Assembly (NCBI GenBank): GCA_030272155.1
Contig: CP126201.1
Coordinates: 2,702,501 to 2,766,500, forward strand
Origin: Tetradesmus obliquus
Lineage: Eukaryota; Chlorophyta; Chlorophyceae; Sphaeropleales; Scenedesmaceae
Length of the DNA: 64,000 nucleotides
Reading direction: 5' to 3'
Notes under the pieces: generated by a model
The model's database searches: none
What the model saw: the letters and a program-made list of their open reading frames with translations, nothing else
Told to the model about the DNA's origin: nothing
Made by a program: the position numbers and the translations under genes
Shown: positions 881 through 59,509 of the stretch, in pieces
How the letters are laid out: the number at the start of each line of letters is the position of its first letter
How positions within the stretch are numbered: the stretch's first letter is position 1

Positions 881-3456
881 ATGCAGCGAATGTCTGGGCT
901 GTTGAGGCCTGTGGACAGGACAGGCTTGCGACGAGCTGGTCATGCCGCGCGAGGCTTGCAGTCGCAACATCACATGCGTTCAGCTCTGCCACGATACAAC
1001 AGCGCAAGTCACGGGCGGCAGAGCTTGCTGCAGTGCCCGCATGCAGTGCAGCCCAGCCAGTCTCTGCACAGCACTGCTGGGAACGGCAAGGAGCAGCGGA
1101 TCAAGCGCTATGCAGGCCTTACTGCGGATGATTTCAGGTGCAGAAACGTGTTGGGAGTTGACTGGGCTCCTCCTAGCCAAGCACTGTACCACGCAACTGC
1201 AGTTGTTCCGTACCTTTCATCTTGCTGTGCTTCTGCTACTGCTGCTTTTGCCGTTTGCTTGCGTGCTTGCTTGCTGGTGTGCTTGATGTTGCGGTGCTGC
1301 TGCTGATGTTCCTGCAGGCATCCTCTAGACCAGCATAACACCAGCCTCATACAGGCGCTGCCTGGCATGGACTTTGTGGCAAAGACTCTCATGGGTGAGG
1401 GCAGCAGCAGAGAGCCAGTGCAGCTGCGGCGGCAGCAGCAGGGGCAGGATCACCATGAACCAGCTTTGGAGCCATTTTCAAGTTGAACGCCAGCAGGGTG
1501 ACAGCAGCCGATCCAGCCCGCTTGGCGCATGGCAGCTCACAGCAGCATCAGCATGTGGCGCGGCAAGGCGCCATCGTGCGTCTATGCTTGCAGCGGCTCT
1601 TGCACCAGACAACCATGCTCCGCCTTCACATGCCGCTTTGCCCTGAAGCAACTCCCACGCATACCTTCAAACAATCAACCAGCAGCCGGCTGTGGTGTGT
1701 CTGCGCTGTGGTGCAGGCCCTGTTGCTGAGCAGGTGCTGCTGCTGGAAAACATCGCCACGTCCATCAAGACTGGCCCGGACCAGCTGCCCACAGTGCACA
1801 ACCTGCTGCTGGAAGCTGTGAGTGCACTGCTAGCTGACAGCCAGCTTCTGTGTGCTAGCTATCTACTGCACCAACTATCAAGCTGTTGGAAGTGGCAGTG
1901 GCAGCAGCAGCAGCATCTGCGTACACAGCACAACCTGCTGCTGGAAGCTGTGAGTGCACTGCCGGTTTATACCTATATACTACAACTACTGTAGAGCATT
2001 CAAAGTCAGAGGCAGCAGCTGCTGCTGCTGCTGCCTACAGTGCACAACCTTCTGCTGGAAGCGGTCAGTGCGCTGCCAGGCAGTTGAGATTGAACTTGGC
2101 ATCACCAAAAGCAGCTGAACCTGCAGCAGCACCAGCACAGCAGGATGAACAATGTGCAGCTTGGCTTCTGGAATGCGTCAATGCAAGAATGCTCACTCTG
2201 GTATGCGTGGCTTGGTGTCAATGCTCAATCAGTAGAGGCTTATGCCGCATGGCCTACACAAAGCCTGCAGCAGCAGAGCGCGCACTGCACTTCCACACAC
2301 TGCCCTGGCACCTTGGATGGCCCCTCACTGCCTTTTGTCACCATTTTCTGCACCTTCTCTGCACCATGCAGGCTGAGATGCTGCAGATGGAGCCCCCTGA
2401 GCTGTACGTGCGCCAGAACCCCGACACCCGTGCGTGCTGCTGCTACATGCCACTAACCTGCCATGTAACCGTCATGTGTCTGCACCATGCAGGCTGAGGT
2501 GCTGCAGATGGAGCCGCCGGAGCTGTACGTGCGCCAGAACCCCAACCCTAATGCCTATACCCTGGCCATCACGGGCCGCAAGCCCTTTGTGGTGGTGCAC
2601 ACCAGCCTGCTGGAGCTGCTGACGCTGCCTGAGCTGCAGGCGGTGATTGCTCACGGTGCGTGAAAGCAGCTGCACATGAGGGCTGCATAGGTGTTGCCTC
2701 TTGACAGTACTGCTGGTGTTCGTTGTGCACACCAGCCTGCTGGAGCTGCTTACATTGCCTGAGCTGCGGGCAGTGATTGCACACGGTGAGGACATGCGCT
2801 CCCTTTGTGTCACATTGCCTGTCACTATTGCTGGTGTTGATAGTACATGAAGCCTGCTGGAGCTGCTGTTAGCAGACTGAGCTGCAGGCAGTGATTGCGC
2901 ACGGTGTGCAACAGCAGAAGGGCTGCATGTGAGCTGTCTTTGACATTGTTGCTGGTACTTGTAGCTTATACCAGCCTGCTACTGCTGCTCACGCTGCCCG
3001 AGCTGCAGGTCATTGCACACGGTGTGTGATTGTGTCCTGCCTACGTCAGTGCTGCTGTTCGCATTCTCGGTATTGCTGTAGTTACACATATGCCGTCGTT
3101 GGGTGTTGTTTGCTAGTATAAGCATGGTACACAAAGTTGCAGCCCTAGCTCTGAAGAGCCTGCAAGTGTTCTGGGCCAGCCTGCGCGTGGTGGTATGATG
3201 CTTCATTGTTCTAGTGTGCCTGCTGATGCTGACGCTGCTGTTCTGCAGAGCTGGGCCACCTCAAGTGTGACCATTGGCTCTGGCTGACCATTGCCAACGT
3301 TTGCAGGGAAGTATGTCGAACTGTTGTTGTGTGTCTGCTGCTGCTGCTGCTGCTGTTGCTGCTGCTCTGCAGAGCTGGGCCACCTCAAGTGTGACCATGG
3401 GCTGTCGCTGACCATTGCCAACGTGTGCATCGAAGTATGTTGAACTGTTGTTGTGT

Positions 3457-3500
<44 letters not shown>

Positions 3501-6091
3501 AATTGCAGAGCTGGGCCACCTCAAGTGTGACCATGGGCTGTGGCTAACCACAGCCAACGTGCTGGCGAGTGGCACGGTGTCTATACTGCCGTTCATATCA
3601 GGTGCGGGGCGCAGTTTGACCGCCTCGGCTTGCCTGTGACACAGCTAGTTGAGATTGGTTGTAAAGCGGGTCATGATGGTAAGCAGCAATTCTGTCAGTG
3701 GCAGTTGGGAGTGCACAGCACTGCTGCAGATTGAAGAAGTGTTGCAGGCAGCTGCAATCTGCATAGCTGTCCTCAGCTCAATTGTGCTGGCTGATGGCAG
3801 GGTGTCCATCCTGCCGCTCATATCAGGTGTGGAGGCGGGATTGAGCAAGTGGCTCAACACAAGCCAACCAGCTGGTGGTTGGTGTGCTGTTGAGGAGGCC
3901 CCTGCTGTCGTGTCTGCGTGCCTTGTGCCACTCGCTCATACCTGTTCTGTTGCCACACCACATCACACTTGAGCAGTGGCTCAAGCCAGCCTCCCCACCT
4001 AGTATGAGCGGCTTGAAGCTCGCAGCTTCAGTGCAGCTACTAATAACTGATCGATGGGTCTGTGTTCTAGTCAGCGACGCGGCAGCTGCTTTCAAACCAC
4101 ATCGCCAGATGTCAGGGCGCTGCATCGCAGCAATCAGCGATTAGAAGCAGTGGTTTGGGCAGAAGCATTGAAACGTACAGCCACTCAGCTCCTTGTACAC
4201 CTCATTTTTGAATTTCTCTTTGATTGGGTCGGGATCGAGCTGGATCAAGCTGGGGGGTTGTGCAGCAACCTCACTGGCCAGAGATCACACATCGCAATGG
4301 TCGCAATCCATCACAAGGCTGCTGTGGACTTCAATAGGCAAATTCATGTGTGTTGCTGTACAACAGATGTGCTGACCTGCTGCAGGCACGGTTGAGGACG
4401 CGCTGCTGCGCTGGCTGCGTAACAAGTCACATAACAACATATCTATTTTCAAATCTTGATGCTGCTGTATGCTGCGTTGCTGCAGGCAGGTTGAGGACGC
4501 GCTGCTGCGCTGGCTGCGCAACAAGTTACAACTATCTTCAAATCTTATTGCTGCTGTATGCTGCGCTGGTCATTGCTGGCAGGCTATAATAACAACCCTG
4601 CGCTGGTGCGTATGTCAGCGTATGCTGCACTGCCGCAGGCACGATTGGGACGCGCCGCTACTTAAATTCCTTATTGATCACATATCTTGTGGTGGTATGT
4701 ATGATGTGCTGCTGCAGGCACGGTGGAGGACGCGCTGCTGCGCTGGCTGCGCGCAGCGGAGTTGACATGTGACCGTGCAGCGCTGCTGGTGGCTCAGGAC
4801 CCAGGGGTGGTCATCGGGGCACTCATGAAGCTGGCGGGCGGCAGCCCTGCTTTTGCACATGAGCTGAGTGTGGATGCTTTTCTGCAGCAGGTGGGTTCAA
4901 ATGTAAACTGGTTGTTGTGGGTGTCTGTCTGTGTGTGCAGTTGAGTGCGCGCGCGTAATATGCGTGCTGGTGCGTGCTGAGGCTGTTGGGAGTGTGCAGA
5001 GGATTGCTTGGCTTCAAGTTTGGTTGCGGACCCCGGGGTGGGCATTGGGCCACTCATGAAGCTGGCGGGCGGCGGGCCTGCTTTCGCACATGAGCTGAGC
5101 GTGGACGCTTTCCTGCAGCAGGTGGGTGGCGGGCGGGGGTGCTGATGCGGGTGATGGCTGTCTCTGTCTGCAGTTGAGTGCTTGCATATAACAAATGCGT
5201 GTGTGCTGGTGCGTGCTCAGGCTGCTGAGGGCATTTAGCGGATACCTTGGCTTCACTTTTTGATGCGGGCTTTGACGTGGTCATTGGTGTGCTGGTGAAG
5301 CTGGCCGGCGGCAGCCCTGCCTTTGCAACCGAGCTCAGCGTGGACGCGTTCCTGCAGCAGGTGCGCGGCGTGCTTGCACAGTGCTTCTTTTTAACACCCC
5401 CACTGAATTACGGAGGTTTTGCACCAAGCTTTGGTGGCTTTGCACCAAGCTTGCATGGCCTCCCACTGAATCAGGGAGGTTTTGCACCAAGCTTTGGTGG
5501 CTTTGCACCAAACTTGCATGGCCCCCATTGCATTAGGGAGGTTTTGCACCAAGCTTTGGTGGCTATGCACCAAACTTGCATGGCCTCCTACTGAATAAGG
5601 GAGGTTTTGCACCAAGCTTTGGTGGCTTTGCACCAAAGTTCCTTCGGCTGCTTGCTGCTGCTGGCTAGCACTGTGTCTGCCGCCTTGAGCAGCGCTTACC
5701 CTTCTTCTAGGCTTCATGAGGATAATTGGTTGATGATTTTGGATGTTGCACCCTGTTACTGCAGGCGCGCTCATACGACGAGGTCACCACCAGCAGCATG
5801 CTTGGCTGGTACCTGCGCAATGCACAGACACGTGCGCTGAGCCATCCACTGCCAGTGATGCGTGCTCGGGAGATAGACCGCTGGGCCCAGGGCGCTCAGT
5901 ATAAAGCGCTGCTGGCGCGCAACAGGACGGTCAGCATCCCTATTACTAACGGCAGCAGCATCAACAGCAGCAGCAGCAGCAGCAGCGGCGGCGGCGGCAG
6001 CAGCGTTGCAGGGAGCGTTACAGCAGCGGCTGGCGGGCCTGCCGGCGCTGCTGCAGGTGCAAGCAACGGCTACCGACAGGCTAGCAGTTGA
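881..6091 (+). CDS. Plastid-type M48 family metallopeptidase, 7 exons, 396 aa
   Basis: Predicted zinc endopeptidase of family M48, of the plant/cyanobacterial kind exemplified by Arabidopsis At3g27110. Exons: 881-1137, 1318-1394, 1717-1817, 2493-2655, 3509-3601, 4718-4890, 5765-6091. All junctions are GT-AG and phases agree (1191 nt). Residues 1 to about 70 are rich in Arg, Ser and Ala and look like a chloroplast transit peptide. The conserved PPELYVRQNPNPNAYTL block precedes the zinc motif HELGH at 199-203, which is split by intron 4 after the first base of the Glu codon. The third zinc ligand is probably Glu245 in WLRAAELTCDRAAL. The plant C-terminal block LGWYLRNAQTRALSHPLPV is present, followed by a Ser/Gly/Ala-rich tail of about 50 residues. 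The loop between exons 5 and 6 is several residues shorter than in plants. Introns carry many partial exon copies, listed separately. Substrate is unknown. Confidence 0.9.
1797..2073 (+). repeat. Echoes of the M48 exon 3 end with its donor (3 copies)
   Basis: The real exon 3 end encodes HNLLLEA and runs into the donor at 1818. Intron 3 repeats the same exon end plus intron head at about 1924-1963 and 2037-2073. Spacing is about 127 and 113 bp. The third copy has gt changed at the donor position. Confidence 0.85.
2371..3028 (+). repeat. Echoes of M48 exon 4: one head copy, three tail copies
   Basis: A partial copy of the exon 4 head, including the tgcaccatgcag acceptor and the code for AEMLQMEPPELYVRQNP, lies at 2371-2430, 122 bp before the true exon at 2493. 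The exon 4 tail, coding LLELLTLPELQAVIAH up to the donor, recurs at about 2728-2788, 2847-2905 and 2968-3028, at 119-128 bp spacing with growing divergence. Confidence 0.85.
3240..3560 (+). repeat. Echoes of the M48 exon 5 head with acceptor (3 copies)
   Basis: The acceptor plus AGCTGGGCCACCTCAAGTG occurs at about 3249, 3370 and 3509. Only the last continues into a full exon. (CTG)n tracts sit just upstream of the second and third copies. The exon 5 tail (VSILPFIS) is also echoed at about 3795-3830. Confidence 0.85.
4381..5362 (+). repeat. Echoes on both sides of M48 exon 6
   Basis: Upstream of the true exon (4718) the acceptor and the code for VEDALLRWLR are repeated at about 4381-4430, 4481-4535 and, degenerate, 4632-4660. 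Downstream, the exon tail coding LMKLAGGSPAFAHELSVDAF plus its donor is repeated at about 5028-5125 and 5270-5362, at 235-240 bp spacing. Both downstream copies keep GT donors. Confidence 0.85.
5395..5650. repeat. 63-bp minisatellite in the last M48 intron (about 4 units)
   Basis: The unit contains two copies of a submotif around gaggttttgcaccaagctt. Units start near 5404, 5467, 5530 and 5593. Unlike the neighbouring arrays it does not resemble the flanking exon. It stays open in one + frame as a GGFAPSFGGFAP-like repeat, which I take to be chance. Confidence 0.85.
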
Positions 6092-9633: not shown

Positions 9634-9730
9634 CTACACCTGTCCCATCCGCTGGTACACAGTCGACGCCTGCTGCACTGCTGCGCGAGCCTGTTGCGGC
9701 GGCGCTGCTGTCCGCGGCACTGCCTCCAGC
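9494..9730 (-). repeat. ISA2 coding end echoed beyond the stop codon
   Basis: A block of about 110 bp beginning cagctgccggctacacctg at 9624 (spanning the ISA2 stop and last codons) recurs at 9494, exactly 130 bp downstream of the gene. Differences are mostly single substitutions. This shows the duplications are not limited to introns. Confidence 0.85.
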
Positions 9731-12700
9731 ATGATTGCTGCGCCTGGTGCCACAACATACTCCGAGTGCAGCATCTCCCCATGCTCCACTGCCACGTCCT
9801 GAGGCGGCATCCTGCAGCAGCAAAACACAGCACAGCAAGTTGAATTGTTTGGCCTGGTGCTATTCAGAGTGCAGCATCTCCCCATGCTCCACTGCCACAT
9901 CTTGAGGCGGCATCCTGCAGCAGCAAAGCACAGCACCGGGCAGCGCAGCAAGTTGAGTTGTATAGGCCTGGTGCTACAATGTTTAGTCAGAGTGCAGCAT
10001 CTCCCCGTGCTCCAATGCCCACGTCCTGAGGCGGCACCCTGCAGCAACAAAGCACAGCACAGCGCAGTATCGTGTGTTGGTTTGACCTGGACCTACAATA
10101 TACTCAGAGTTGCAGCATCTCGCCATGCTCCACTGCCACATCTTGAGGCGGCATCCTGCAGCAACACAGGATGGCATTTGTGTCTGGGGTGATCTGGTTT
10201 GGTTGCTCAGTGCTTGCAGGGCAACTGTGTCAACACGACTCAAGCTCAAGCCGGTTGAGTGAGCAGCACAGCGGCGCGTGATCATGCAGCAGCAGCAACA
10301 GCAGCTGTGCACACTGCTGACAACAGATGAAATTGCGAAGCTGAGAAGGAACGCCGAGACACGTCATGACAGGATCCCTGCTGCATGGTGTTTCAGTCAT
10401 GCGCGCGCTGCACGACCCCGTCCTCTGGCACATCCATGGCCATAATCCTTGCTGCCCACCGTGCTGTGTCCACTATCCTCTTCCACTGCATGCGCATGCC
10501 GGGCTGCATCATCATCATCATCATTAGCAGCAGGAGCAGCATCTGCAGGTGCTCAAACAGTGTTCCCTTGCATAGGTGTCACCTATCCTTCTCACTCACC
10601 GGGCTGTGTCCACTATCCGCTTCCACTGCATGCGCAGGCCCGGCGGCGGCAGCGACGCACTGCAGGGTTCAGGGTTGGGGTTGAACCCCACATACACAGC
10701 CTGCTGCTGGTCCCCTTTGACCATGAAGGCCACATAGTTTGACCCGGGCAGCAATGCTGCTGCTGCCTCGCCGCTCCAGTCTGGCTCTGACATGGGCCCT
10801 GCTCCGTGCCAGCTGTTGATGTGTTGTGCAGTTAGTGGTGGCAGCAGGCAGTGGACAGGCAGGCGCAAAACACATGGCAGCAAGAACAGCGTGAAAGGAG
10901 CGCAGGAGAAGGATGCAAGATGGGCGGGGAAGGCCAGGCAGGCAAGGCATCACATGCAACAGCCGTTGCATGCTTGCTGAGTTTGCACTGTCTGAGGGCA
11001 CATGCATGTTTGCGGTTGCGCGTGCAGCAGCTCAAACAGCAGCCTGTGAACCCAAAGGAGCAGCGTGTCACAAATACCTGATGGCGCGCGGCGAGTCAAA
11101 CATTGGGGGTGACAGCAGGTTGCGGTACTTCCGCCGGATGGTCAGCACGCCGCGCACAAAGTGCAGCAGGTTCTTGCGGCTCAGCGTAGGCGCGTTGAAC
11201 ACCGGCGTGCCCTGCGGCAACAGATGACAGTGATCCAAAACGATGTTAGGCAGTGATAGCGTCAAATGTCATTCAGTAGGACAATGGCTCAGGGTGAACA
11301 CGTTGAACACCGACGTTCCCTGCATCAGCGGCAGCAGCAGCAGCAGCAGCGCACGGCACAAGGTTGGCGAAGGAGCACCCAGTTGTGTGACGATGCTTAG
11401 CTTGCTGCGACGTTGCATCTGCCGTCCATTTCCACCCCTGACGGTCCCGCCCAGGGCAAAACCATCAAACCCAACAAACCCATGAGTGACCAGCAGCAGC
11501 ATCGCCTCAACTGCGCCACTAGCACTGCCAGCAGCTTGGCAGCCACCTCAATGAATGATTCGGACACTCAAAGGCACAGTCATCATCAACATCCACAATG
11601 CTGTCCGCCTACCTGTGCCACCAGCACTGCCAGCAGTGCCGACTTGGCCACCACCTCAGCCCGCTCCATATCTTCTGCTGCCCCCACCAGCGGCCGCCGT
11701 CAGCCCACCAGGCAGCCCACCAACGCACAACATTAGCTCTACTACGCTGTCGCCTTCTGCCGACCACAAAACAGTGACATGATTTAGTCATCAGCAGCAT
11801 CTTCTCACCTGTGCCACCAGCACCGCCAGCAGTGCCGACTTGGCGACCACCTCAGCCCTTTCAATGTCCTCAGCTGGGCCCCTTCCCCGCAAGTGCCAGC
11901 AGCGAGCCAGCCAACGGCTCCAGCGCACTCATCAACATTCACAATGCTCAGCATGCTGCTGCCTGCTGCCAGCTGCCAGATCCCAGCCCCAGTTCCACCC
12001 AAGTCAGGCAAAAAATAGACCCGCCTAAACAAAGACATCAGCAACATCTTCTCACCTGAGCCACCAGCACCGCCAGCAGTGCCGACTTGGCCACCACCTC
12101 AGCCCTTTCCATGTCCTCAGCTGCCCCCACCAGCGCCAGCAGCGAGGCAGCCAGCGGCGGCTCAAGCGCATTGATCCCAAAGGCGGGCCGCCGGCCAGCC
12201 GCCAGCCCACCAGGCAGCCCACCATCCCAGCGAGCAGCAAAGAGGTCCTGGCTGCCGGTCATGCGCGTGGCGAAGGCACTCAGCATGCCGCCTGTGATCA
12301 GGTGAGCAAGTTTGCGGCACAGTAGCACCAGCAGCAGCAGCAGCAGGGATACTATGAGTGAGACTGAGCAAGCCGCTGGGTGAAAGCAGCTGCCAGAGTG
12401 CAAACCATGACGCCTGTCGAGAAGAAGACGAGACACCCACAGCAATACTTGTGCTTGATGCATGTCAACAGGTCCTGGCTGCCGGTCATGCGCGTGGCAA
12501 ATGCACTCAGCATGCCACCTGTGAACACGTGAGCAAGTTTACGGCACAGTAGCACCAGCACCAGCAGCAGCAGTAGGGGGTGGTGTGAGTGATACTTAGA
12601 TAGTTGCTGGGTGATATCAGCTGCCAAAGTACCACGCCATGCAGCCCGTCAAGATGACGACAGGAGTTTGAGCAGCGTTTCAATGTGCTTGATGCACGTG

Positions 12701-13020
12701 CAGGGGTCACACCTGCTGCTATGCATTCATGCGCCTGGACAATATGCACATCAGCTACTGTGCCACCGCATCTGGAGGATCAATGATAAAGCAGTGAGCC
12801 TGCGCACCTGCGTTGTCCCGCAGCAGCCGCAGGATGTCATTTCCAAAGCGGTTGTTCCATTCCAGCAGCACGCCGTAATGCGGGAAGCCGCGCTCGCCGT
12901 TGCGCGGCAGCAGCGAGTCGTTTGCAGAGGCCGCAATGAGCTTGCGGCTGGCGAGCACGGGGTCGGCTGCTATCTCTTCTACGATGGCGGGCGAGTCCTG
13001 CACTGCGTTGAGCGGGTCCT

Positions 13021-13055
<35 letters not shown>

Positions 13056-13157
13056 TGGGATGGCTAGTGGTGTGGGCATGCGGCCGGCTGCGACTCTTTG
13101 GCAATGGCGGGCGAGTCCTGCACGGCATTGCAAAGATCCTGCAGGAGGGAGGATTGT

Positions 13158-13211
<54 letters not shown>

Positions 13212-18706: not shown

Positions 18707-18743
<37 letters not shown>

Positions 18744-19225
18744 CGTGCCGCACCTGGGTACCACAGCACAAGCCCAAGTTTACAGGGGCCATGTTGCGCG
18801 GCTTGTGCATGCCTGCTACCACAGTGCCGTGCGCTCACTGTTGCTACTGCAACTGCTATTGCTGCAGTTGCGTGTCGTGCCGCACCTGGGTACCACAGCA
18901 CAAAGCTGAGGTTCACAGGGGCCATGTTGCGCGGCACGTGCTTGCCTGGAAACATGCTCTGACAGTCCATACATTTGCTACCGCTGCTGCTGCTGCTGCT
19001 GCTGCTGTCGTGCCGCACCTGGGTACCACAGCACAAAGCCGAGGTTTACAGGGGCCATGTTGCGCGGCACGTGCATCTCCAGCGCCCAAACGTCCTGCTG
19101 CTGGTTGTAATGCAGGTGGCTGCGCATGGCCCCTGTGGCCTCATCACGCCAGCTGTCTGGCGGGATCACGTCCTGGGGGTGCACCCAGGTGGGGTTGTTG
19201 CGGTACAGGCCCCTGCGCAGCAAGC

Positions 19226-19268
<43 letters not shown>

Positions 19269-19415
19269 AAGTCAGGTGACAGGGTGCACCCAGGTGGGGT
19301 TGTTGCGGTACAGGCCCCTGCGCAGCAAGCAGCAGCAGCAGCAGCAGCAGGAAAGTCAGGTGACAGGGTGCACCCAGGTGGGGTTGTTGCGGTACAGGCC
19401 CCTGGAGAGCGCCAA

Positions 19416-19466
<51 letters not shown>

Positions 19467-19618
19467 GAAAGTCAGGTGACAGGGTGCACCCAGGTGGGGT
19501 TGTTGCGGTACAGGCCCCTGCGCAGCAAGCAGCAGCAGCAGCAGCAGCAGCAGGAAAGTCAGGTGACAGGGTGCACCCAGGTGGGGTTGTTGCGGTACAG
19601 GCCCCTGGAGAGCGCCAA

Positions 19619-19653
<35 letters not shown>

Positions 19654-19801: not shown

Positions 19802-19845
<44 letters not shown>

Positions 19846-41494: not shown

Positions 41495-41528
<34 letters not shown>

Positions 41529-42815
41529 CAGCAGCAGCAGCAGCAGCGGCAACAGCAGCAGCAAGATGAATTATCACGTAACAGTGTGGCAGGTCAGGGA
41601 TGTGGGAAATGCAGCAGCAGTAATAAGAAGGCAGGGCGAAAGTGTTGGCATTGCTGTGAGTGAACAGGGAGGGGTTGACAGCCTGGTGTTGCACACAGCT
41701 GGCAGCCAGAGCGGCAACTAGCACAACAGGCGAGCAGCAGAGCCGCATGCAGCCGCAGCAGCGGGCAAAAACATGCATGCCCTTGCATCTAGCTAACCTC
41801 GCTGCATCCCATACCCACCTGCAGCTGAATCGTCAAGCGCCGCGCAACCGGCGCTACTTTTTGCCCCGTCAGTTTGAACCACGCCTCCCTCCAGCGCTCC
41901 TGCTTTGGCTTCTTGCGATACACCACAAGCATCTGCCTAAAAGTTGGCTCCACTATTTCAACCGGCTCCAGCAGCGTCTGCAGCAAGCTGCCCCTGCTGC
42001 TGCTGCTGCTGCTGGTGTTGTCAATGCTGGCGGCCGCAGCCTCCCAGCTGCTGCTGCCGCTGCTGCTGTCATCAGTGCTGCCTGCCGCAGCTGACAGGCT
42101 GTCAAAGCTCCTGCTGCGGCTGCTGCTGCTGCTGCTGCTGTGGTTTAGCCGCAGGGTTTTGCGCTCCAGCCAGCGCAGGCGGGGTTCAATGACGGGGTCC
42201 ATGATGTCTGGCAGGGTGGCCTTTTCGATGAACAGCGGCTGGAAGCGGCGCGGCTCCAGCAGCGGGTACACCTGCCGCATATTGAAGTTGACAGCGCAGC
42301 GGCATACCCATGTGGTGAGCCAATATGAAGGCTCAGAGTACTCTTGATGTATGAACAGTGGCTGGAAGCGGCGCGGCTCCAGCAGCGGGTACACCCGCCG
42401 CTTAATGATTCAACAGCGCAGCCGAATGCGGTTGTAGCGAGCCATTAAACAAACTACAGTTTTAGTGTATGAACAGCTGCTGGAAGCGGCGTGGCTCGAG
42501 CAGCGGGTACACCTGCAGCGCCGACAGCAACGACATTGCAGCACCAGCGGCATGTGGATGCTCTGAACGCAGCATGAACATGAACTGCACTATGGCGGCA
42601 GATGTTGGAGCGAGTTATGCTGCATAAGATGCCACCGCAGGCGCAGTTAAAATCGAATTCACTGGACTCCGTGCTGCGTACCTCATCAAACACTTCCAGC
42701 GGCGTCACATCCATGCGGGGGATAAAGCCCCACTCCGACAGCGAGTGCAGCAGGCTGGCAAAGCTCTGTTCAGCACGGGAGGATACCTGACCCCACAGGC
42801 CCCGCTTCTTCTCAC

Positions 42816-42847
<32 letters not shown>

Positions 42848-47624: not shown

Positions 47625-48691
47625 CCGGCAGTTGCAGATGGTGCAGAGTGGCCACGTCATGCTGCAGGTGCCCAGAGAGCCTGTTGTCCAGCTGCAGCTC
47701 GCTTTGCTGCGTGCACTACCAGCACCTATTTGGTACCCGTGGGTGTTGCGAGATAGGGTCATGTTATGTTCGCGTATACGCAGCGCGTGCATGCACCTGG
47801 ACTAAACTGAAACCTTGCCACCTCGCTGCTGCTCGTCAGGGTGCACTGATTAAGGGTGGCGGCTGGCTGGTGCCTGAGCTGGCGGCGCAGCGGCTGGAGG
47901 TGGAGCTGGAAGGGGACAGCAGACACTGCAGCAGCCCCAAGCAGCTGTGGCGGCAGTACGTGGTGAGCACTAGCAGCAAGAGCTGTGGATACCACTGCAT
48001 AGCATGCATTGTAGCAGACAGCAGGCACTGCAGCAGCCCCAAGCAGCTGTGGCTGCAGTACGTGGTGAGCACTAGCAGCAAGAGCTGTGGATACCACTGC
48101 ATAGCATGCATTGTAGCAGACAGCAGGCACTGCAGCAGCCCCAAGCAGCTGTGGCGGCAGTACGTGGTGAGGCTCAGCAGCTGGCAGGGATGCAGCTGTG
48201 GAATGTCACTTTGCATCAGCTGAGCACGCTGGGGGGAAATGGGGCGGCTGGTTGAGGCTTTGTGTCTGCGCGGAGATGTGTCTTGGGTTATGTGCATGTG
48301 ATTGTTTGTGTTTGGGTCCATGTCTGGTGCATATCTGCCGTGCATGCGTGTGCGTATGTGCCTGACGTCTGCTTGTACTGTGCTCATGCTTATGCTGCCT
48401 GTCCTGCTGTGCCTGCAGCCTCACCTTGACATGCCACCAGTGGCAACAACCATCTCGGGCCCACAGCAGCAGCCACACGTAGCAGCAGCAGCAGCAGTCG
48501 GCGAACATGGCTGGCAGCAGCAGCAGCAGCAGCAGTGGGACTGCCAGCAAGGGGAGCAGCAGCTAGGGGTGCAGCTGCTCCAGCAGCAGCTGGCAGCAAA
48601 CCAGCAGCAGCAGCAGCAGCAACAGTGGCAGCCGCAGCAGCACTCACAACGCGCTGCTGCAGGACAGCAGCAGCAGCAGTGGCGAAACACT

Positions 48692-48724
<33 letters not shown>

Positions 48725-49425
48725 GCGCAGCCGGCGCCTGTTGTTGCTGCTGCCACGTACACAAGCGACACAGACACGGATGGGAATCTGTCGGACACGT
48801 TTTATGCTGAGGAGCATGACAAGACTCCGCCTGTGTTCATTGTGATCAAGCTGAAGGGAGGCAGGGTGAGTGCTGCACAGCTGGCGGCTCAGCTGTATCC
48901 AACCGACGCTTCACTGTTGTCATTGGTGTCCTTGACCATTGTTATGTCATTGTTTGATTGTGCTCAAGCTGAAGGGAGGCAGGGTGAGTGTGGTACAGCC
49001 TGCAGCTTCGCTGTGTCAGTGCTCAGGTGTCACTGTTCTTGTTGATGGCCGTCATCATTGTGTTCATTGCGCTCAAGCTCAAGGGAGGCAGTGTGATTGC
49101 AGCACAACTTGAGACGTGGCTCTGCTGGTGTGCTGCGATGCAATCGCCCTGTAGCAGCAACAGTAGCAACAGCAGCAGGACCTTCTTCAGTACCAGGATG
49201 AATTTGTCAAGCTGCAACTGCATGAACAGCAGCAGCAAGCAGCGCTGCGTGTGTAATGGGGTCAAGCCAGTCCCAGTGTCACACCTGCTCACCGAACCAC
49301 CACCATCAGGCATCGCTAGGTAGAATCGTAACGAAGGCTCTGCCTCGTGCCGCGTGGTGTCGCCAATCACATCTGCTGGAGCACATGCACAACTGTGTTG
49401 TCTATGCCTTGGGTGAGCTGCCCAG

Positions 49426-49467
<42 letters not shown>

Positions 49468-49551
49468 AGATGCTTGCACAGCTCGAGGTGGACGGCGCGC
49501 TGTGCCGCCAAAAGTGCCTGCTGGAACACATGCTCAGAGTGTGTTGCCCAA

Positions 49552-49605
<54 letters not shown>

Positions 49606-50063
49606 AGATGCTTGCGCGGCTTGAAGTGGACGGCGACACCTGGCAGGTGGTCAACGCCAACCACCCGCTGTGCAGCGAGACAGAAGTGTGGCGCTACAGC
49701 GGCTGGAACAACTGGCGCCCTGTCAGCGGCGGCTTCACCAGGCGCGGTGTGCCTGATGTGTTCTTTCCTCGTGAGGTGGAGCACGTGCTGTTCCCCGGCT
49801 GCTCTCACAAGTGAGTGATGTGGCGGAGGCCCTGTTTTGTTGAGGTGTGAGTGAGGTGAATTGAGTGGAGCGCATGCTGTTCCCTGGCTGCCGTCACAAG
49901 TGAGTGAGGCGCTCGTTTGTGTGAGTGAGGCGGCAAGGGTGCCGGGATCGCGGCCCTGTGGGCATTGCTTTGTTGCACCCTACGGCTGGCCAATGCGCGG
50001 TCAAGAGCGTGTCGAGAAAGGAGGTGGAGCATGTGCTGTTCCCTGGCTGCCCACTTACAGTTT

Positions 50064-50094
<31 letters not shown>

Positions 50095-53000
50095 GCTGCT
50101 GCAGGTACACCACGCTGGGCTGCAAGGTGCGCAGCGAGGACATCCACAAGGCCTACCAGCTGCCGGCATCACCCCCGGTGCCCATTGATGCACAGTACCT
50201 GGACATCTACTCGCAGCGCGTGCCGGTGCGTGCGAATCGCTAGCTTTCTCGAGCTTTTGGCCGTGCTTTGCACCCTTTGACGGGAATACATGCCGAAGAT
50301 AAGAGTACTCTGCATATGACCATGTCGCAGTGCGCGAGGTTAGCTCAGCCTCAAAAGACACCACTTGAAAGAAAAAGTTGACTGTGGTTACGGCCTGATG
50401 ACGTTTGCGCTAATGTAACGGGCCACCACAGGTCATGCACCAGCAGAGCGCCACCAGCGCAACTTGCGTCAAAGCAACACCACCTGAAAGTACTGACCTC
50501 TGCACACAATCTTTGCCTTCACAGGTGTGGCAGACCACCACAGGGCACCTGCTAGCCGAGTGCCACATCAACGGCAAGCGTGCCGGCTGGATGATCTTAG
50601 ACACGGGCGCCTCTGGCTTTGTGATCGAGCCGGGCGTGGCTGATCAGTACGAGCTGCCGACGTTCGGGGACCTGCGCATTGCAGGAGTGGCCGGCAAGGT
50701 GAGCAGGCTGGGGCTGTGTGTGTGACGCGGTGATTGCTTTGCTTGTTGCTGTGCGTCGTTAACTGTTTGGCTGTCTGAAATTGTGTTCTGGCTGTGAAGG
50801 ATGCTGCCAAAGAAATGCACCGGCTGGATTCTCCTGGACAAATGGGCATCTGGCTTTGTTATTGAACCGGGTGTAGCTGACCAAAAGGAGCTGCCGACGT
50901 TTGGGGACCTGTGCATTGCAGGAGTGGCGGGCAAGGTGAGCAGGCTGCTGCTGTGTGTGTGACGCGGTGATTGCTTTGCTTGTTGCTGTGCGTCATTCAA
51001 CTGGTTGGCTGTCTGGGATTGTGTTCTGGCTGTGAAAGATGCTGTGAAAGAAAAGCGTCGGCTGGATGTTCCTAGACACTGGGGCATGTGGCTTTGTGAT
51101 CGAGCCGGGGGTAGCGGACCAGTACGAGCTGCCAACATTCCGGGACCTGCGCATTGCAGGGGTGGCCGGCAAGGTGAGAACGCGGCGTGGTGTCTGGGTT
51201 TTGAAGCGGATGCACTTGTGTTATGTGGCTATGTGTTGTGTGACTACTTTTCCTCACTCATATGTTTTGCCGCAGATCAGGATGTGCCGTTTGATGCGCG
51301 CACCAGCTGCGCGTTTCTGGTACCAAACAACTGCTTCTACTGCATGTACTGCCGTACTGCCTTACTACTGCCTTGCTGCATTGCACTGCCGCAGATCAAG
51401 ACGCGCTTCAGGCGCGCCCTCCAGCTGTGCATTGGCCCGCTGCTGTCACTCAACCTGTGCTGATGCACCGTCATACTGCCGCTTGTACTGCTGCCGCAGA
51501 TCAAGACGCGCTTCAGGCGTGCGCGGCAGCTGTGCATTGCCTAGCTGCTGTTCTGCCAACCTGTGCTGATGTACCGCTGTACTGTACTGCCATAACTGCC
51601 GAAAACTGTTTTGCCTGCAGATCAAGACGCGCTTCAGGCGTGCGCGTCAGCTGCGCATCGGCCCGCTGCTGCTGAGTGACCCTGTGCTTATGGAGATGCG
51701 CGCGAGCAAGCTGGTGCAGGGCTTCCATGACAGGGTGGTGGGCATTGCAGGTGAGCAGGATGATTCTTTGGTGCCTTTGTTTTCGTCTTTGAGTGTCATG
51801 TATTATGCGCATCGCTGAGTGACTCCGTGGTCATGATGGGATGCGCGCCAGCAAGCTGGTGCAGGGCTTCCACGACTGCATGGTGGGCATTGCATGGTGG
51901 GCATTGCGGGTGAGCGGGATAATTCTTTATGCCTTTTGCTTTCCTTCTTTCTGTGAGTGTCCTGTATTATGCGCGTTGCTGAGTGATTGCGTGCTCATGG
52001 AGATGCGCGCGAGCAAGCTGGTGCAGGGCTTCCATGACAGGGTGGTGGGCATTGCGGGTGAGCGGGATAATATTGTATATGTCTTTGGTTTCTCGAACCA
52101 ACATATCTGCATCATCCCCGGTGCTGAGCAAAGTGGTGCACAGCTTTCATAATGCGGTGGTATGCATTAAGGGCAAGTTGCTGTGCGGGGTTGGTGACGC
52201 ATGCGTCGGCCTCACTGCTGACTCGTGCTCCCCTGCGGTCTGCTGCTGTGCATTCCTGCAGGCTATGACGTGTTCAGGCGCTGCCGCATGACGCTGCCCT
52301 GCCACAAGACACGCGAGGGCTTAGTCAAAGCCACCAGCTGCATGGGCAAAGTCAAGCCTCAAGGAGCCTACAACTACTCCTTCAATAACAGCCTCAACGG
52401 CACAGCGCAGCCGTGGCCACCCAGTGTAGCCACTGCACAGCAGCTTGCGGAGCTTCAGTCCGTGCAGCAGCAGCTGCTAGTGGCAAACAGTCCGTCACAC
52501 GTGCCTGCAGACGCTGCGGCGCCTGCTGCTGCGACGGCTGCGGTGTCGCCCACGCGCAGGCGCGGCAGGACTGCTGCCGCTGCTGTTGCTGCTGGCGCTG
52601 GCAGCGGTACAGCGAGCACCAGCAGCGTGCAGACGCGGCCGGCGGCAGCCGCCGCAGCAGCAGCAGAGCAGCAGCAAGGCAGCAGCAGCAGGTTTGTCAG
52701 CCGGCGGCGGCGCAGCAGGTCCGCCAGCTTAAGCACCTCAGCTACAGCAGTAGCTGCGCAGCCTGTTACAGCTGCTGATGTCAGCAGCAACAGCGACACG
52801 CCTCAGCAGCAGCAGCAGCAGCAGCAGGAGCTGCAGATGTTGCAGCCTGTGGAGGTGCCGGCTGTGCTGTATGCTCCGAATGCTGGCAAGCCCAACGAGC
52901 TGGTTGAGATGCTGCTGCAGCGGCCGCAGCTGATCAAGGATCCGCAGCAGCTGGAAGAGGGCTACATCTGGCAGCCGCTGGTCATGGTGAGCGCAGGACA

Positions 53001-55781
53001 GTGCGGCTGGTGTTTTGTTTTGTGTTTTATGCTCGGTGACATTGGCGATGCGCATGTCTGCTGGAGGATGGCTGCATCTGGCAGCCACTGGTCATGGTGG
53101 GCCAGGCCCTTGCTATGTTGTGATGGCAGTGCGGCTGGTGTTGTGTGGTGTATCTCGGGATGACAATGCCTGCTGGTTGAAGAGGGCTACATCTGGCAGC
53201 CGCTGGTGATGGTGAGCGAGACCCTTTTTGCAGTGTTGCTGATGTGGTGTTGGTGTGTGGCAAATGATGTTGTGGATGAGCATGGCGTGCACTTGGTGGC
53301 CGCTTGTGTCGTGAGGGTGTCATACACGACGCAAATGATGGTGGCGGCGAGGGCAAACAGGCCTTGTGAGAGGCTGTGCGGCGCTGGCCATAGTGGCAGG
53401 GCAGGCCGCAACTGATCAAGGGCCCGCAGCAGCTGGAGGATGGCTACATGTGGCAGCCGCTGGTCATGGTGAGCTGCATGATGCTGCAGCTGGTGTTTTG
53501 TTTTGTGTTTTATGCTGTGTGTTCTCGGCGATGCGCATGTCTGCTGGAGGATGGCTACATCTGGCAGCCGCTGGTCATGGTGAGCGCAGGACAGTGCGGC
53601 TGGTGTTTTGGTTTGTGTTTTATGCTCGGTGACATTGGCGATGCGCATGTCTGCTGGAGGATGGCTGCATCTGGCAGCCGCTGGTCATGGTGGGCCAGGC
53701 CCTTGCTATGTTGTGATGGCAGTGCGGCTGGTGTTGTGTGGTGGTGTATGTTTCAGGATGAGCATGTCTGCTGGTTGAAGAGGGCTACATCTGGCAGCCG
53801 CTGGTCATGGTGAGCGCGGTCCGTTTTGAATTGTTGCTGATGTGGTGGTGTTGTGGCAAATGATGTTGTAGATGCGGATGCCGTGCACTTGGTGGCCGCA
53901 TGTTTCGTGAGGGTGTCGTTTACGACGCAAATGATGCTGGCGGCAAAGGCAAACACGCCCTGTGGCAGGCTGTGCGGCGCTGGCCATGGTGAGAGGGCAG
54001 GCCGCAGCTGATTACAGATCAGCGACAGCTGGAGGAGGGCTACATCTGGCAGCCGCTGGTCATGGTGAGCGAGGCCCTTTTCTGCTTCAAATAAGGTCAT
54101 ATGTGACGTTGCTGGTGTGGTGTTAACGATCTTGGGGATGAGGGTAAAGTCTGCTTGGTGGCCGCGTGTGGCGTTGTTCACACGTCCAATTTTATCCAAA
54201 CTGTTGAGCGTCAAGATCCCGCTGTGCCGCCAGCCTGCCGCATATCGAGCTAGAGTTTGTGTCGCCAGGCACCGGCGCCCGCCACAGCAGCCTGTTCCTG
54301 GTTGACACGAATGCTGTCTGTTGTTACGTTCAAACTTTCAACCAAGTTTCCAAACTATTGAGTCGTTGAACTTCCCGCTGTGCCGCGCAGATCGCCAGCC
54401 TGCCGCACATCGAGCTGGAGTTTGTGTCACCGGGCACCGGCGCCCGCCACAGCAGCCTGTTCCTGGTGGACACGGGCGCAGGCGGCATGGTCCTTTCTAA
54501 ATTTCAATTTAAACCTTCACTCAAAACACTTCATCCTCACCTTCAAACCTTCCTGCTGAACTTTGCGTGTGCGCAGATTGCCAGCCGGCTGCACGTTGAG
54601 CACGAGTTTGTGTCGCCATCCCATCTTCTACAACTCAAAACACTTCATCCTCCCGCCAATTGTCCCGCTGCGCAGATCGCCAGCCTGCCGCACATCAAGC
54701 TGGAGTTTGTGTCACCAGGCACCGGCGCCCGCCACAGCAGCCTGTTCCTGGTGGATACTGGCGCAGGCGGCACGGAGGCCCAACTCAAACTTTCAAACCC
54801 TCCTTTCTGCGTGCGCAGATTGCCAGCCTGCCGCACATTGAGCACGATTTCATGTCACCATCCCATCCTGTGCAACTCAACACTTTATCCTCCTGCCAAT
54901 TGTCCCGCTGCGCAGATCGCCAGCCTGCCGCACATCGAGCTGGAGTTTGTGTCACCAGGCACCGGCGCCCGCCACAGCAGCCTGTTCCTGGTGGACACTG
55001 GCGCAGGCGGCACTGAAGTCATGTTCCACAGCAGGGCGGCACGCGAGCTGAAGCTGCTTCAAGACCAGCGGGCACTGTACGACGTGAGTTGCTGCTTGGA
55101 GGGATTGGTTGCATGCGTTGTGGCGCTGAGCAGGAGTCGTGTTCCACAGCGGGCGGCGCGCGAGCTGCAGCTGCTGCAGAACAAGCAATAATGGTGCCAC
55201 GTGTCCTTCAGCATGGATTGAGTCTGGCACACCAGATCATTGAGGCATCACCATACGTCAAAGATTCAGTCTCCTCCCATCCTAGGCTGGCTTATCTGTT
55301 GCTCACCCTCACCTCCTGCCGCTGCCCTTCACTTCTGCTGCCCTCGCCCACCCTCACCAACCACAAACCACAAACTTCAAACCACCAGCCGGCCTACGGC
55401 ACCACATACGTGTCAGGCGTGGATGATGGCAAGAGCACCTCCCACTCATCCCCGCAAGTTGCGGTGCAGTCCGGGAAGCTGCCAGAGATCATCATTCGGG
55501 GGCAGGCAGGCTCCAACCCACAGGCCTGTGGCTCTCTGGTGCTCAAAGATGTGGCAGCGCTGTATAGCAAGACTGGCGGGCTGGATATTAGTTTGTACTC
55601 GGCGGGCATGGTGTGCATTGATCTGCTGTCGAGGATGCAGGTGGTGCTGGACTACCCGAATAAGAGAATCGGGTGGAAGGTGCCTCCGCCGCCGCCGCCG
55701 TCGCAGCAGCAGCAGCAGCAGCAGGGTGTGGGAGCAGCGGCAGCGGTTGCTGCGGCCAGCAGCAGCAGCAGCAGCAGCTGA
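45839..55781 (+). CDS. Host protein with two retropepsin-like aspartyl-protease domains (algal plastid-type family)
   Basis: Multi-exon host gene, not a retroelement. Exons I can support: 45839-46129, 46529-46783, 47110-47175, 47475-47534, 47840-47962, 48419-48865, about 49170-49250, 49608-49810, 50105-50225, 50525-50698, 51621-51750, 52262-52986, 54916-55083, 55389-55781. Phases agree across these. Gln-led stretches near 46800-46960 and 47590-47757 may be further exons. The N-terminus is basic and Ser/Ala-rich, possibly a transit peptide. Blocks follow as in green-algal homologues: YKWGFDGGSDSQCWE, VDPSGVSKVLERDDHEASLL, WRYSGWNNW. The first protease motif is GWMILDTGASGFVIEPGVAD, followed by GIAGYDVFRRC. 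The second is SLFLVDTGAGGTEVMFHSRA, then GGLDISLYSAGMVCIDLL. Two DTG motifs in one chain suggest an internal pseudo-dimer; proteolytic activity is inference. Introns are the most echo-rich in the window. Confidence 0.75.
47917..48190 (+). repeat. Triplicated exon end at about 100-bp spacing
   Basis: The segment coding DSRHCSSPKQLWRQYV and the gtgagc donor is present at 47918 (true), 48016 and 48118. Copies are nearly identical and each has a usable donor. Confidence 0.9.
48837..49110 (+). repeat. Echoes of the IKLKGGR exon end
   Basis: The true end at 48865 is followed by degraded copies near 48947-49000 and 49052-49110 (KLKGGS), about 105-110 bp apart. The third lost the exact gtgag donor. 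Confidence 0.8.
49430..49640 (+). repeat. CTG tract plus exon head, duplicated
   Basis: (CTG)n ending in CAG followed by ATGCTTGC(A/G)C(A/G)GCT occurs at 49430-49492 and 49556-49640. The second leads into the true exon at 49608. The exon end (VEHVLFPGCSHK) is also echoed at 49862-49905 and 50022-50055. Confidence 0.87.
50525..51180 (+). repeat. Three copies of the first DTG protease exon at 238-bp spacing
   Basis: The GWM(I/F)LDTG segment starts at about 50584 (true), 50822 and 51060. Copies run through the exon end (DLRIAGVAGK) and its donor. Copy 2 reads DKWASG instead of DTGASG; copy 3 reads DTGACG. Only copy 1 has a clear acceptor and the full upstream exon part. Confidence 0.9.
51273..52060 (+). 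repeat. Echoes on both sides of the IKTRFRRA exon
   Basis: The exon head (ATCAAGACGCGCTTCAGGCG) with its cgcag acceptor occurs near 51276 (degenerate), 51394, 51500 and 51621 (true). The exon end (MRASKLVQGFHDRVVGIAG) with donor is echoed at 51839-51920 and 51998-52060. Confidence 0.88.
52950..54070 (+). repeat. Eight copies of the EEGYIWQPLVM exon end with donor
   Basis: Copies of ggctacatctggcagccgct lie at about 52960 (true), 53070, 53184, 53441, 53551, 53664, 53782 and 54038. Spacing is 110-118 bp, or about 256 bp where a unit seems lost. Most are followed by gtgagc. Confidence 0.9.
54220..55020 (+). repeat. Six copies of the second DTG exon head with acceptor
   Basis: The acceptor plus IASLPHIELEFVSPGTGARH code occurs near 54227, 54393, 54570, 54678, 54819 and 54917 (true). 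Three copies reach the DTGAGG motif; only the last continues to the full exon. Confidence 0.9.
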
Positions 55782-55874
55782 CATCAAGCACAGCAGCTGT
55801 CTTTAACTAGCTTTAAGGCACTTTCAGACGGCAGCGCTGCAGCATGGTGCAGGCTGCGGGTGCCAGCATAGCAG

Positions 55875-56183
55875 TCCGGGAAGCTGCCAGAGATCATCAT
55901 TCGGGGCCAGGCAGGCTCCAACCCACAGGCCTGTGGCTCTCTGGTGCTCAAGGATGTGGCTGCGCTGTTCAGTAAGACCGGCGGGCTGGATATTAGTTTG
56001 TACTCAGCCGGCATGGTGTGCATTGATCTGCTATCGAGGATGCAGGTGGTGCTGGACTACCCGAATAAGAAGATTGGGTGGAAGGTGCCGCCGCAGCAGC
56101 AGCACCAGCAGCAGGAGGGTGTGGGTGTGGGTGCAGCGGCAGCGGTTGCTGCAGCCAGCAGCAGCAGCAGCAACAGCTATTGA
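55875..56183 (+). CDS. Second copy of the terminal exon of the retropepsin-like gene
   Basis: The stretch coding SGKLPEIIIRGQAGSNPQAC through the C-terminal Ser-rich tail is duplicated: 55466-55781 within the first terminal exon, and 55875-56183 as a separate open segment preceded by atagcag, an AG acceptor in the same phase (0). It has its own stop. Differences are few (ALF for ALY, KKIGW for KRIGW, a different Gln/Pro tail). It lacks the preceding YGTTYVSGVDDGK part, so use as an alternative last exon would give a shorter protein. It may equally be an untranslated 3' duplicate. Confidence 0.6.
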   Translation, partial: SGKLPEIIIRGQAGSNPQACGSLVLKDVAALFSKTGGLDISLYSAGMVCIDLLSRMQVVLDYPNKKIGWKVPPQQQHQQQEGVGVGAAAAVAAASSSSSNSY

Positions 56184-57863: not shown

Positions 57864-57898
<35 letters not shown>

Positions 57899-59509
57899 AC
57901 TGCCGCTGCTGCTAGAAGGTATGTTAGGGTCTATGATTCCCAGAAGCGCATTGTCTGCTGGGTAGTATGTTGTTGGGAAAGTGCTCTGTTCTGCCATGCA
58001 GCGCGCACACTGCAGGGCATCAGCAGCAGCAGCAGCAGCAGCAGACGCAGCAGGCAACAACACAGGTGAGTTGTGTTCACTGACAGTACATGGAGGTGTG
58101 TGTGAGGCAGCTGTGCTCAGCCAAAGCCAAGCAGCTCATCCACAGCATTGGCAGCACTTGAATAACCATTGCCAGTAGAACGCCGTAAGGAAACATACAC
58201 AAGTGAACCCACGCGCCGAAGCAGGACCATGCAACACATGTGGCTCACCTGGCAGTGGAAGCCGTACACACCCTGTCGTTCAGCCCGCCGCAGCGCCAAA
58301 GGACACTGAAGGTGCACTTAGAAGGCAGCTGAACAAATATCTTCAAGCTTTTACCAGCTCACCTGGCAGTGGAGGCCGTAGACGCCCTGCAGATACGCCT
58401 GCCGCCGTGCCACGGGCGCCAGCCCGCGCTGCCCCAAGTAGCTGCCGCTGCACAGTATAATCAACATATCTCAACCCAATTGACAACTCACCTGGCAGTG
58501 GAAGCCATACACGCCCTGCAAGTACGCGCGCCGCAGCGCCACAGGCGCCAGCCCACGCTGCACCAGGCGCCTGCCGCTGCACATAACAACCAATATATCT
58601 CAACCCATTGACAACTCACCTGGCAGTGGAAGCCATACACGCCCTGCAAATACGCGCGCCACAGCGCCACAGGACACTGAAGGTGAACTTGAAAGGCAGC
58701 TGTATATAAAAACTTAAGCTTTTACCAGCTTACCTGGCAGTGGAAGCCATACACGCCCTGCAAGTACGCCCGCCGCAGCGCCACATAATAACCAACATAG
58801 CTCATCCTTGTCACCCACTCACCTGGCAGTGGAAGCCATACACGCCCTGCAAGTACGCCCGCCGCAGCGCCACAGGCGCCAGCCCGCGCTGCCCCAGGTA
58901 GCTGCCGCTGCACCTAACAACCAACATATCTCAACCCATGGACAACTCACCTGGCAGTGGAAGCCATGCACACCCTGCAAGTACGCGCGCCGCAGCGCCA
59001 CAGGCGCCAGCCCACGCTGCCCCATGTTCCTGCAGCTGCACATACTCAGCAAACTCGTCCATTTCACTGATCCACTCACCTGGAAGTGGAAGCCATACAC
59101 ACCCTGGAAATACGCCCAGCATAATGCCGCTGGTTTGACAGAAAGGCAACACGTGTGACTCACCTGGCAGTGGAAGCCGTAGACACCCTGCAAGTACGCG
59201 CGCCGCAGCGCCACGGGCGCCAGCCCGCGCTGCCCCAGGTAGCTGCAGCTCAGCTCCTCTCCAGCTAGCACAGGCGCTGCAGCACGCAGCAGCAGGTACT
59301 GACCCACCACAACTGGCACTGTGTTGGGTGCACAGCTGTGGTTTAGCAGCGCAAATTCTGGCCAGAGACCTGTTATGGATTCAGGTGTGAGCTCTCGGAG
59401 GAGTGAGGCTCCGGAGTCTTCTGAGGGCTCACTGTATGCGTTGCCTGAGATCAGCTGCTGCAGCTGTCTGCTGTTGAAGGGGCAGGCGATGGACGTGATG
59501 GAGGCATCC

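Follow-up and report, generated by a model that had tools for sequence, protein, structure and literature searches.

Exon edges copied with their splice sites into adjacent introns of the green alga Tetradesmus obliquus, and a possible origin in recombination between diverged haplotypes

Six spliced genes lie in a 64,000-nucleotide stretch of the genome of the green alga Tetradesmus obliquus (referred to here as the window; C11:2702501-2766500, the genome comprising 104.66 Mb in 17 contigs), and their introns contain stacked partial copies of the neighbouring exon edges, each copy with the adjoining splice donor or acceptor. These copies, which we call echoes, are real, and their arrangement and substitution pattern are the subject of this report. 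Pfam searches with six window proteins matched four (M48, prismane, aspartyl protease, and SET); no family was found for the isoamylase-2-like model at E 0.01, nor for the gene at 39829-44475, of which the last exon alone was scanned. The isoamylase-2-like model (577 residues) aligns with an isoamylase 2 structure only from residue 12 to residue 414 (E 5.4e-45), and its last exons lie outside this homology-checked part. The hybrid-cluster protein/hydroxylamine reductase model (522 residues) matches the solved structure 7de4 from residue 78 to residue 518 (E 1.8e-139), and eight of its nine exon joints fall inside the match. This family is best known from bacteria and anaerobes; the gene found here (32427-37061, minus strand) is spliced and belongs to the nuclear genome.

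Exon edges were taken from a self-trained splice-aware gene finder (donor CAG/GTGAG, acceptor TGCAG/G, the slash marking the exon boundary), applied to the window and to further samples: ten 20-kb blocks (C1-C10), eight 10-kb blocks, and two 8-kb blocks. Retraining on more sequence merged two window genes, so the original self-trained models were kept in the window and in the ten blocks sampled first. We left out genes scoring below 30, genes with too few exons (fewer than three for the junction-match count, fewer than two for the edge counts and the copy table), and introns shorter than 60 bp; in the copy table the exon extent of copies was limited to 110 nt, and removal of copies with fewer than 25 exon columns reduced the set from 134 to 129. 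The gene models are predictions and copies inside one array are non-independent. Because the finder overlooked some exons, echo counts are approximate; several overlooked edges (in the introns of the L018-L019 gene and at 280-820 of block L025) are themselves echoed, so the counts are probably low.

Comparison of the window with itself yielded 122 repeat pairs, 120 of them direct and at most 1.1 kb apart, and pairs joining an exon to an intron made up 9 of 11 in the hybrid-cluster gene and 20 of 28 in the isoamylase gene. A copy in the adjacent intron was found for 29 of the 64 modelled exon edges in the window (counts per gene are given in Table 1) and, over all 19 gene models, for 61 of 274. 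As controls, edges matched the introns of other genes in 2 of 822 comparisons (own versus other, Fisher p = 9e-37) and introns of the same gene at least two away in 14 of 1856, while exon interiors more than 110 nt from an edge never matched adjacent introns (0/524). A search extending up to 1.5 kb returned 121 junction-spanning matches at 62 edges, all in the adjacent intron and none holding a whole exon. Echoed edges carry one to eight copies (a single one at 33 of 67 edges), and the copied stretch extends to the end of the exon in 123 of 134 cases. Beyond the window, 32 of 210 edges are echoed, very unevenly (0/22, 1/32, 10/20); the figures are 4/40 in the later blocks and 1/22 in a 12-exon gene labelled DEAD-box-like from its sequence alone.

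Table 1. Genes, exon-edge copies, and other features of the window (positions counted from its first nucleotide; copies are listed below their gene).
Feature	Position	Strand	Remarks
Isoamylase-2-like gene, 10 modelled exons	9634..17252	-	12/18 edges echoed
Exon 10 acceptor-edge copies, three (junction 9811)	9844-9926, 9966-10050, 10086-10166	-	Exon outside homology-checked part
Exon 8 donor-edge copies, three (junction 12055)	11500-11550, 11611-11692, 11798-11918	-	Intron 8
Exon 2 donor-edge copy (junction 16219)	15962..16052	-	
Exon 2 acceptor-edge copy (junction 16526)	16592..16698	-	
Dense tandem arrays upstream of modelled exons	17810..20308	-	Periods ~129-185 bp; coding-like by eye; perhaps N-terminal exons of this gene, which would then reach up to ~20.3 kb
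Hybrid-cluster protein/hydroxylamine reductase gene, 10 exons	32427..37061	-	6/18 edges echoed
Exon 7 donor-edge copy (junction 33370)	33245..33325	-	Offset 123
Exon 7 acceptor-edge copies, two (junction 33594)	33643..33847	-	Offsets 123, 248
Exon 4 donor-edge copies, two	34860-34954, 35008-35068	-	Farther copy better preserved
Exon 2 donor-edge second, shorter copy	35874..35927	-	
Exon 2 donor-edge copy (junction 36252)	35999..36110	-	Longer BLAST match to 36138; mostly third-codon-position differences from the exon, yet an in-frame TAA
Spliced gene, 6 exons	39829..44475	-	3/10 edges echoed at score 50
Echoes in this gene	42351-42404, 42469-42519, 41118-41217, 40568-40620; short 40788-40810	-	
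Aspartyl protease gene (PF13650), 8 modelled exons and one missed	48431..56183	+	7/14 modelled edges echoed
Missed exon	54916-55083	+	By eye
Exon 4 donor-edge copies, two (junction 50699)	50846..51178	+	Offsets 237, 475
Exon 5 acceptor-edge copies, two (junction 51621)	51387..51571	+	
Exon 5 donor-edge copies, two (junction 51751)	51814..52068	+	
Exon 6 donor-edge copies, seven (junction 52987)	53060..54071	+	Offsets 110-1078
Acceptor-type copies of the missed exon (start 54916 by eye)	54217..54860	+	
SET gene, exon 2 donor-edge copies, eight (junction 59163)	58239..59115	-	Offsets 84-915; 1/4 edges of the gene echoed
M48 peptidase gene, three tandem versions of acceptor and exon edge	3220..3561	+	Period 124; one version presumably the real exon; motif that we take to resemble a zinc site
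Single-exon gene model, ~1574 aa	22621..27342	-	Long glutamine/alanine/serine runs; no ~120 bp local pairs at the self-comparison threshold, bar one short 72 bp tandem array
Young tandem array, 75 bp units	17248-17468		98%; at modelled start of isoamylase gene
Young tandem array, 63 bp units	5399-5637		92%

An initial annotation of the window had described such copies on both strands, at more than 30 junctions and in every spliced gene, with two to nine copies each, usually less than a full exon in extent and shared between no two genes. Most of this is borne out by the counts above: echoes occur in plus- and minus-strand genes, one to eight copies become two to nine when the original is included, and the anchoring at junctions, the partial extent, and the near absence of cross-gene matches all hold. 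The claim for every spliced gene stands for the five counted window genes and, judged from sequence, for the sixth, the M48 peptidase gene (2487-6091), whose model score was too low for the edge counts; outside the window it fails, as 5 of the 19 modelled genes have no echoed edge and 14 have at least one. Nor are tandem copies equally common away from the edges of modelled genes. By-eye inspection of 29 of the 34 intron-only pairs identified 22 as exon edges overlooked by the finder, 2 as coding sequence whose match includes no splice site, and 5 as plain intronic repeats; since such pairs are mostly overlooked edges, the anchoring is real and goes beyond an effect of visibility.

By a capped measure, the copied unit takes in 27-110 bp of exon edge, together with the splice site and flanking intron sequence. 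Successive copies of a junction are spaced by 123±17 bp in 95 of 134 spacings, and a second group lies at 234±17 bp (16 first copies); the offsets of 64 first copies fall at 80-150 bp (40), 151-204 (4), 205-270 (16), and above 270 (4). Exon and intron parts of the unit are anticorrelated (-0.63, 42 first copies), from which it follows that unit length is the quantity held constant. Past the splice site, spacer homology is detectable in 34 of the 64 first copies, whereas 22 are unrelated by a shuffle test and the rest lie between; under a stricter cross-gene null (95%), the spacers that stand out belong to 29 of 79 donor copies and to 15 of 49 acceptor copies. Units are therefore, at least often, DNA-level duplicates that include intron sequence. 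Intron length increases by about 154 bp per copy (137 introns). The exon-internal boundary is common to several copy families, and in the subset of copies inspected by eye these boundaries showed neither consistent splice signals nor an AGGT pair. Higher-order repeats also occur: at 52950-54070 a block of several echoes is duplicated 593 bp further on with 89% identity. The idea that nearer copies are younger was ruled out, the nearer copy being the better match in 17 cases and the farther in 15, with one tie.

Divergence between exon and copy is mainly synonymous and amounts to 6.1, 4.4, and 18.6% at codon positions 1, 2, and 3 (6.7/5.0/18.1% in the two homology-checked genes alone), and divergence between copies to 7.4, 5.9, and 20.3%. 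The ratio of position 3 to position 1+2 is 3.56 (confidence interval [CI] 2.98-4.25), compared with 1.3-1.5 in simulated neutral donor-edge copies, and exceeds 2 in 11 of 14 genes; expressed inversely, it is 0.28 (CI 0.235-0.336) for exon-copy and 0.33 (0.26-0.395) for copy-copy comparisons, the simulated neutral value being ~0.67-0.77. Transversions are likewise rarer at 2-fold than at 4-fold sites, both between exon and copy (3.0 versus 11.9%, p 1.6e-13) and between copies (5.1 versus 10.7%, p 5e-5). Splice sites are kept: 78 of 80 donor copies have GT/GC and 38 of 43 acceptor copies AG. The donor +5G is kept too (72/77), though positions +3 to +6 diverge by 25.6%. In-frame stops number 8 in 2460 codons, against 20 expected under random placement. 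Frameshift indels are present in 23 of 129 copies, and 40 of the 46 indels in exon parts are not multiples of three; the codon ratio is 4.09 in indel-free and 2.29 in frameshifted copies (position 1+2 differences, p = 1.5e-6). Base composition was rejected as a source of the codon bias; change is more frequent at CpG, but the position-3 excess persists outside it. A paralogous source was rejected for the one exon tested, hybrid-cluster exon 2, which among the best genome candidates matched only itself and its three echoes. We read the pattern as indicating that, during much of the time since their separation, the copies changed in the way coding exon edges do, decay setting in only afterwards.

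The copies also behave like alleles. Position-3 divergence is homogeneous over the 129 copies (dispersion 1.07, where uniform ages would give 2.3-2.8 and exponential ages 3.8-5.4) and does not depend on a copy's rank within its array. Where four or more sequences of a family could be aligned, position-3 minor-allele counts are {54,21,6,3}; the coalescent expectation is {52,25.1,5.5,1.3} and that of a star phylogeny {88.6,8.5,0.1,0.1}. The four-gamete test is failed by 21 of 50 informative site pairs. The third-position variants thus show a frequency spectrum close to that of a recombining population sample. Position 1+2 variants, in contrast, nearly always occur in just one copy (58 of 65; counts 58, 5, 2; p = 0.0005 versus position 3). 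A one-time star burst was rejected by the position-3 spectrum, and a two-parent hybrid by the lack, by eye, of two classes of copies.

Within our sample, local direct repeats, a measure distinct from the counted echoes, are more abundant on shorter chromosomes. Their median sequence coverage is 0.258 on C8-C16 (nine blocks) and 0.025 on C1-C7 (12 blocks), with p = 0.0015 when the window, which had been chosen for its oddity, and block L024, which holds another kind of repeat, are omitted. Coverage and chromosome length are correlated over 21 blocks (Spearman -0.66, C11 taken as 5.4 Mb), and a prediction set after 19 blocks, that C16 and C17 would be high and C4 and C7 low, agreed with the values obtained for C16 (0.487) and C4 (0.000). 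Block GC content and coverage show no association (rho -0.25, p = 0.28). Block L024 (C14:1500001-1510000) has repeats 149-594 bp apart, inverted copies, and low GC (0.494), unlike junction echoes; possibly these repeats are a satellite or transposon.

The most ordinary origin of the echoes would be tandem duplication at random places (by slippage, paired nicks, or end joining) filtered by selection. Exon-internal duplications would be purged, junction-spanning ones would do no harm, splicing still taking place at the outer site, and repeats confined to introns would fade sooner since both partners drift. The DNA-level tandem units, with spacer homology for 34 of the 64 first copies, the gain of ~154 bp of intron per copy, the frameshifting majority among indels (40/46), the three of 14 genes with a codon ratio below 2, and the absence of whole-exon copies (0/121), which selection would require, are all in keeping with it. 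Yet neutral simulation gives a codon ratio of 1.3-1.5 rather than 3.56, amino-acid constraint is seen in copy-copy divergence too, young copies are not in excess (one divergence fits all), plain intronic units make up just 5 of the 29 pairs inspected, and a rescue by mutation several-fold slower in intron copies than at synonymous sites of exons is contradicted by the spacers. Random duplication with neutral decay is therefore already disfavoured, slippage as proposed in the initial annotation leaves the codon-level pattern unexplained, and we consider the whole class of explanation unlikely. Slightly less likely still is concerted evolution on a single haplotype, in which unequal sister exchange and gene conversion would act on an array with one working edge and a former copy would sometimes take over that role. 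Such a process fits the higher-order repeats, the boundaries common to several copies, the occurrence of identical neighbours, and the four-gamete failures, but a single working slot should, as we argue, yield a position 1+2 : 3 ratio of at least ~0.5, against the observed 0.28 and 0.33. Furthermore, the codon ratio is 4.53 in families of six to eight copies (three families) versus 3.95 in those with single copies (31 families), with 3.38 and 2.81 between, and position 1+2 variants do not spread like those at position 3, as they should (p = 0.0005).

That the copies are in use, donor-type ones as alternative first exons and acceptor-type ones as alternative last exons of short isoforms maintained by selection, would explain why splice signals and amino-acid sequence are conserved and why each copy has one splice site, the second not being needed. 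This we regard as improbable: frameshifts affect 23 of 129 copies and eight in-frame stops occur in 2460 codons, exon-internal boundaries lack consistent splice signals by eye, truncated isoforms would be demanded at many introns of ordinary enzymes, and the private state of 58 of 65 position 1+2 variants is unlike long-kept functional copies. The resemblance of the copies to alleles could also suggest an assembly artefact, in which haplotypes from a diverse or mixed culture were joined in series and so mimic tandem copies; spurious duplications of this sort are a known problem in assemblies of differing haplotypes. We consider this very improbable, as mis-joined haplotypes would hardly produce as many as nine distinct versions of a single edge, copies with frameshifts and stop codons, a step of 120 bp that recurs regularly in many genes, and no whole-exon copies (0/121).

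Because one haplotype has only one working edge at a time, a position 1+2 : 3 ratio below 0.5 implies, by the above argument, either separate haplotypes or use of both edges; and as use fits badly with one-sided splice sites, frameshifts, and signal-less boundaries, capture from other haplotypes is favoured. We therefore suggest, with a probability of roughly 0.4, that recombination between strongly diverged homologues, pairing in exons only, stacks the exon edges of other haplotypes in introns. In meiosis or other homologue-templated repair, introns too diverged to pair would confine the start of recombination to exons; a strand would invade the partner exon, copy ~120 nt over the exon edge into the partner intron, and the copied stretch would be joined back next to the resident edge. 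Alternatively, a resident echo might pair with the partner's real exon edge, resulting in unequal exchange. By either route, the working edge of another haplotype would turn into a copy and then decay. Most copies would accordingly be exon edges captured from diverged haplotypes, and not decayed duplicates of the neighbouring exon. The wider claim, which we hold somewhat more tentatively, is that introns may store alleles of the population like an archive, every echo being an edge that once worked in another haplotype and was written by such exon-only pairing.

Several points weigh against capture from diverged haplotypes. Three of the 14 genes have a codon ratio under 2 (0.29, 1.49, and 1.92; seven copies together), and the relaxed constraint in frameshifted copies would follow from any model of past function. 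Exon singletons number 4, against 11.7 expected for an exchangeable sample. The exon-internal boundary shared within several families implies that many copies descend from one unit, so that repeated independent captures cannot be the whole story, and spacers exceed the 95% null in just 29/79 donor and 15/49 acceptor copies, those of 22/64 first copies being unrelated. The chromosome trend comes from 21 blocks and from direct repeats rather than counted echoes; its groups overlap (C13 0.051; one C1 block 0.173), there is no large size step at the C7-C8 boundary, and the trend concerns chromosome length, not recombination rate. Finally, the model would require a standing synonymous diversity near 0.2, which is extreme. 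Such a level would nevertheless not be unheard of, given that the diversity of Schizophyllum commune is near 0.2. S. commune has been called the most polymorphic species known (PMC9187340).

Were the echoes captured alleles, one haploid genome would provide a readable sample of the past polymorphism of its species, with synonymous diversity near 0.2, and the exchange process would be directly testable between strains. The observations also bear on the origin and turnover of long introns, as each copy here goes with ~154 bp of additional intron; what advantage long introns confer on Chlamydomonas and its relatives has been described as unknown, with the mechanism left open (PMC8226300).

Among known systems, intron gain by AGGT tandem duplication (PMC4974935, PMC2891723) resembles the echoes in the local tandem duplication of exon and splice sites; here, in contrast, existing introns are lengthened and each copy has one splice site, and an AG/GT pair at the exon-internal boundary was not found by eye in a subset of copies. 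Introners (PMC9860276) likewise change intron content over many genes, but an introner or transposon family was rejected here, exon edges matching the introns of other genes in only 2 of 822 comparisons. The dual-specific splice sites of the polyubiquitin gene (PMC10809524) also involve tandem repeats carrying splice sites; there, an AGGT array delimits each ubiquitin monomer and splicing includes variable numbers, whereas here the copies are partial edges with one splice site. Whole-exon duplication, with mutually exclusive or cassette exons, was rejected because 0 of 121 matches hold a whole exon with both splice sites. For two green algae, more tandem repeats near intron-exon junctions have been reported (PMC3887541), and exon-edge echoes in an alga were not found among the literature matches listed, which mostly do not cover subscription papers.

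The closest counterpart is the exon stuttering (also sequence stuttering) of chicken dot chromosomes (Hron et al. 2026, PMC12954441), so that the remark of the initial annotation that it knew of no named mechanism in green algae should be qualified. It was reported for birds, with gerbil genes mentioned as a further case, and its authors weigh repair under replication stress or meiotic strand invasion. In both systems, a lateral exon part with its splice donor or acceptor is copied several times into the adjacent intron as local, imperfect tandems (here 121/121 matches in the adjacent intron, up to 1.5 kb), and copying respects the exon border (more than 90% of chicken sources lie within one base; 123/134 copies here reach the exon end). 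Stuttering in chicken is found on small chromosomes; here local direct repeats, rather than counted echoes, show a trend in that direction in a small sample. Purely intronic stuttering, a feature in chicken, is present here but rare (5/29 inspected intron-only pairs), and the association with GC-rich sequence, which the chicken authors regard as potential, does not hold (rho -0.25, p = 0.28). Intron length polymorphism among individuals was shown in chicken, whereas our data come from one genome. That birds and this alga share one anatomy suggests a general process, which may be a by-product of recombination. What the Tetradesmus echoes add to stuttering are boundary-spanning tandem duplications in a green alga with chromosomes of 4-11 Mb, units quantised in length at about 120 bp or roughly double, and the codon-level and allele-like patterns described here, the words ‘synonymous’ and ‘codon’ being absent from the main text of PMC12954441.

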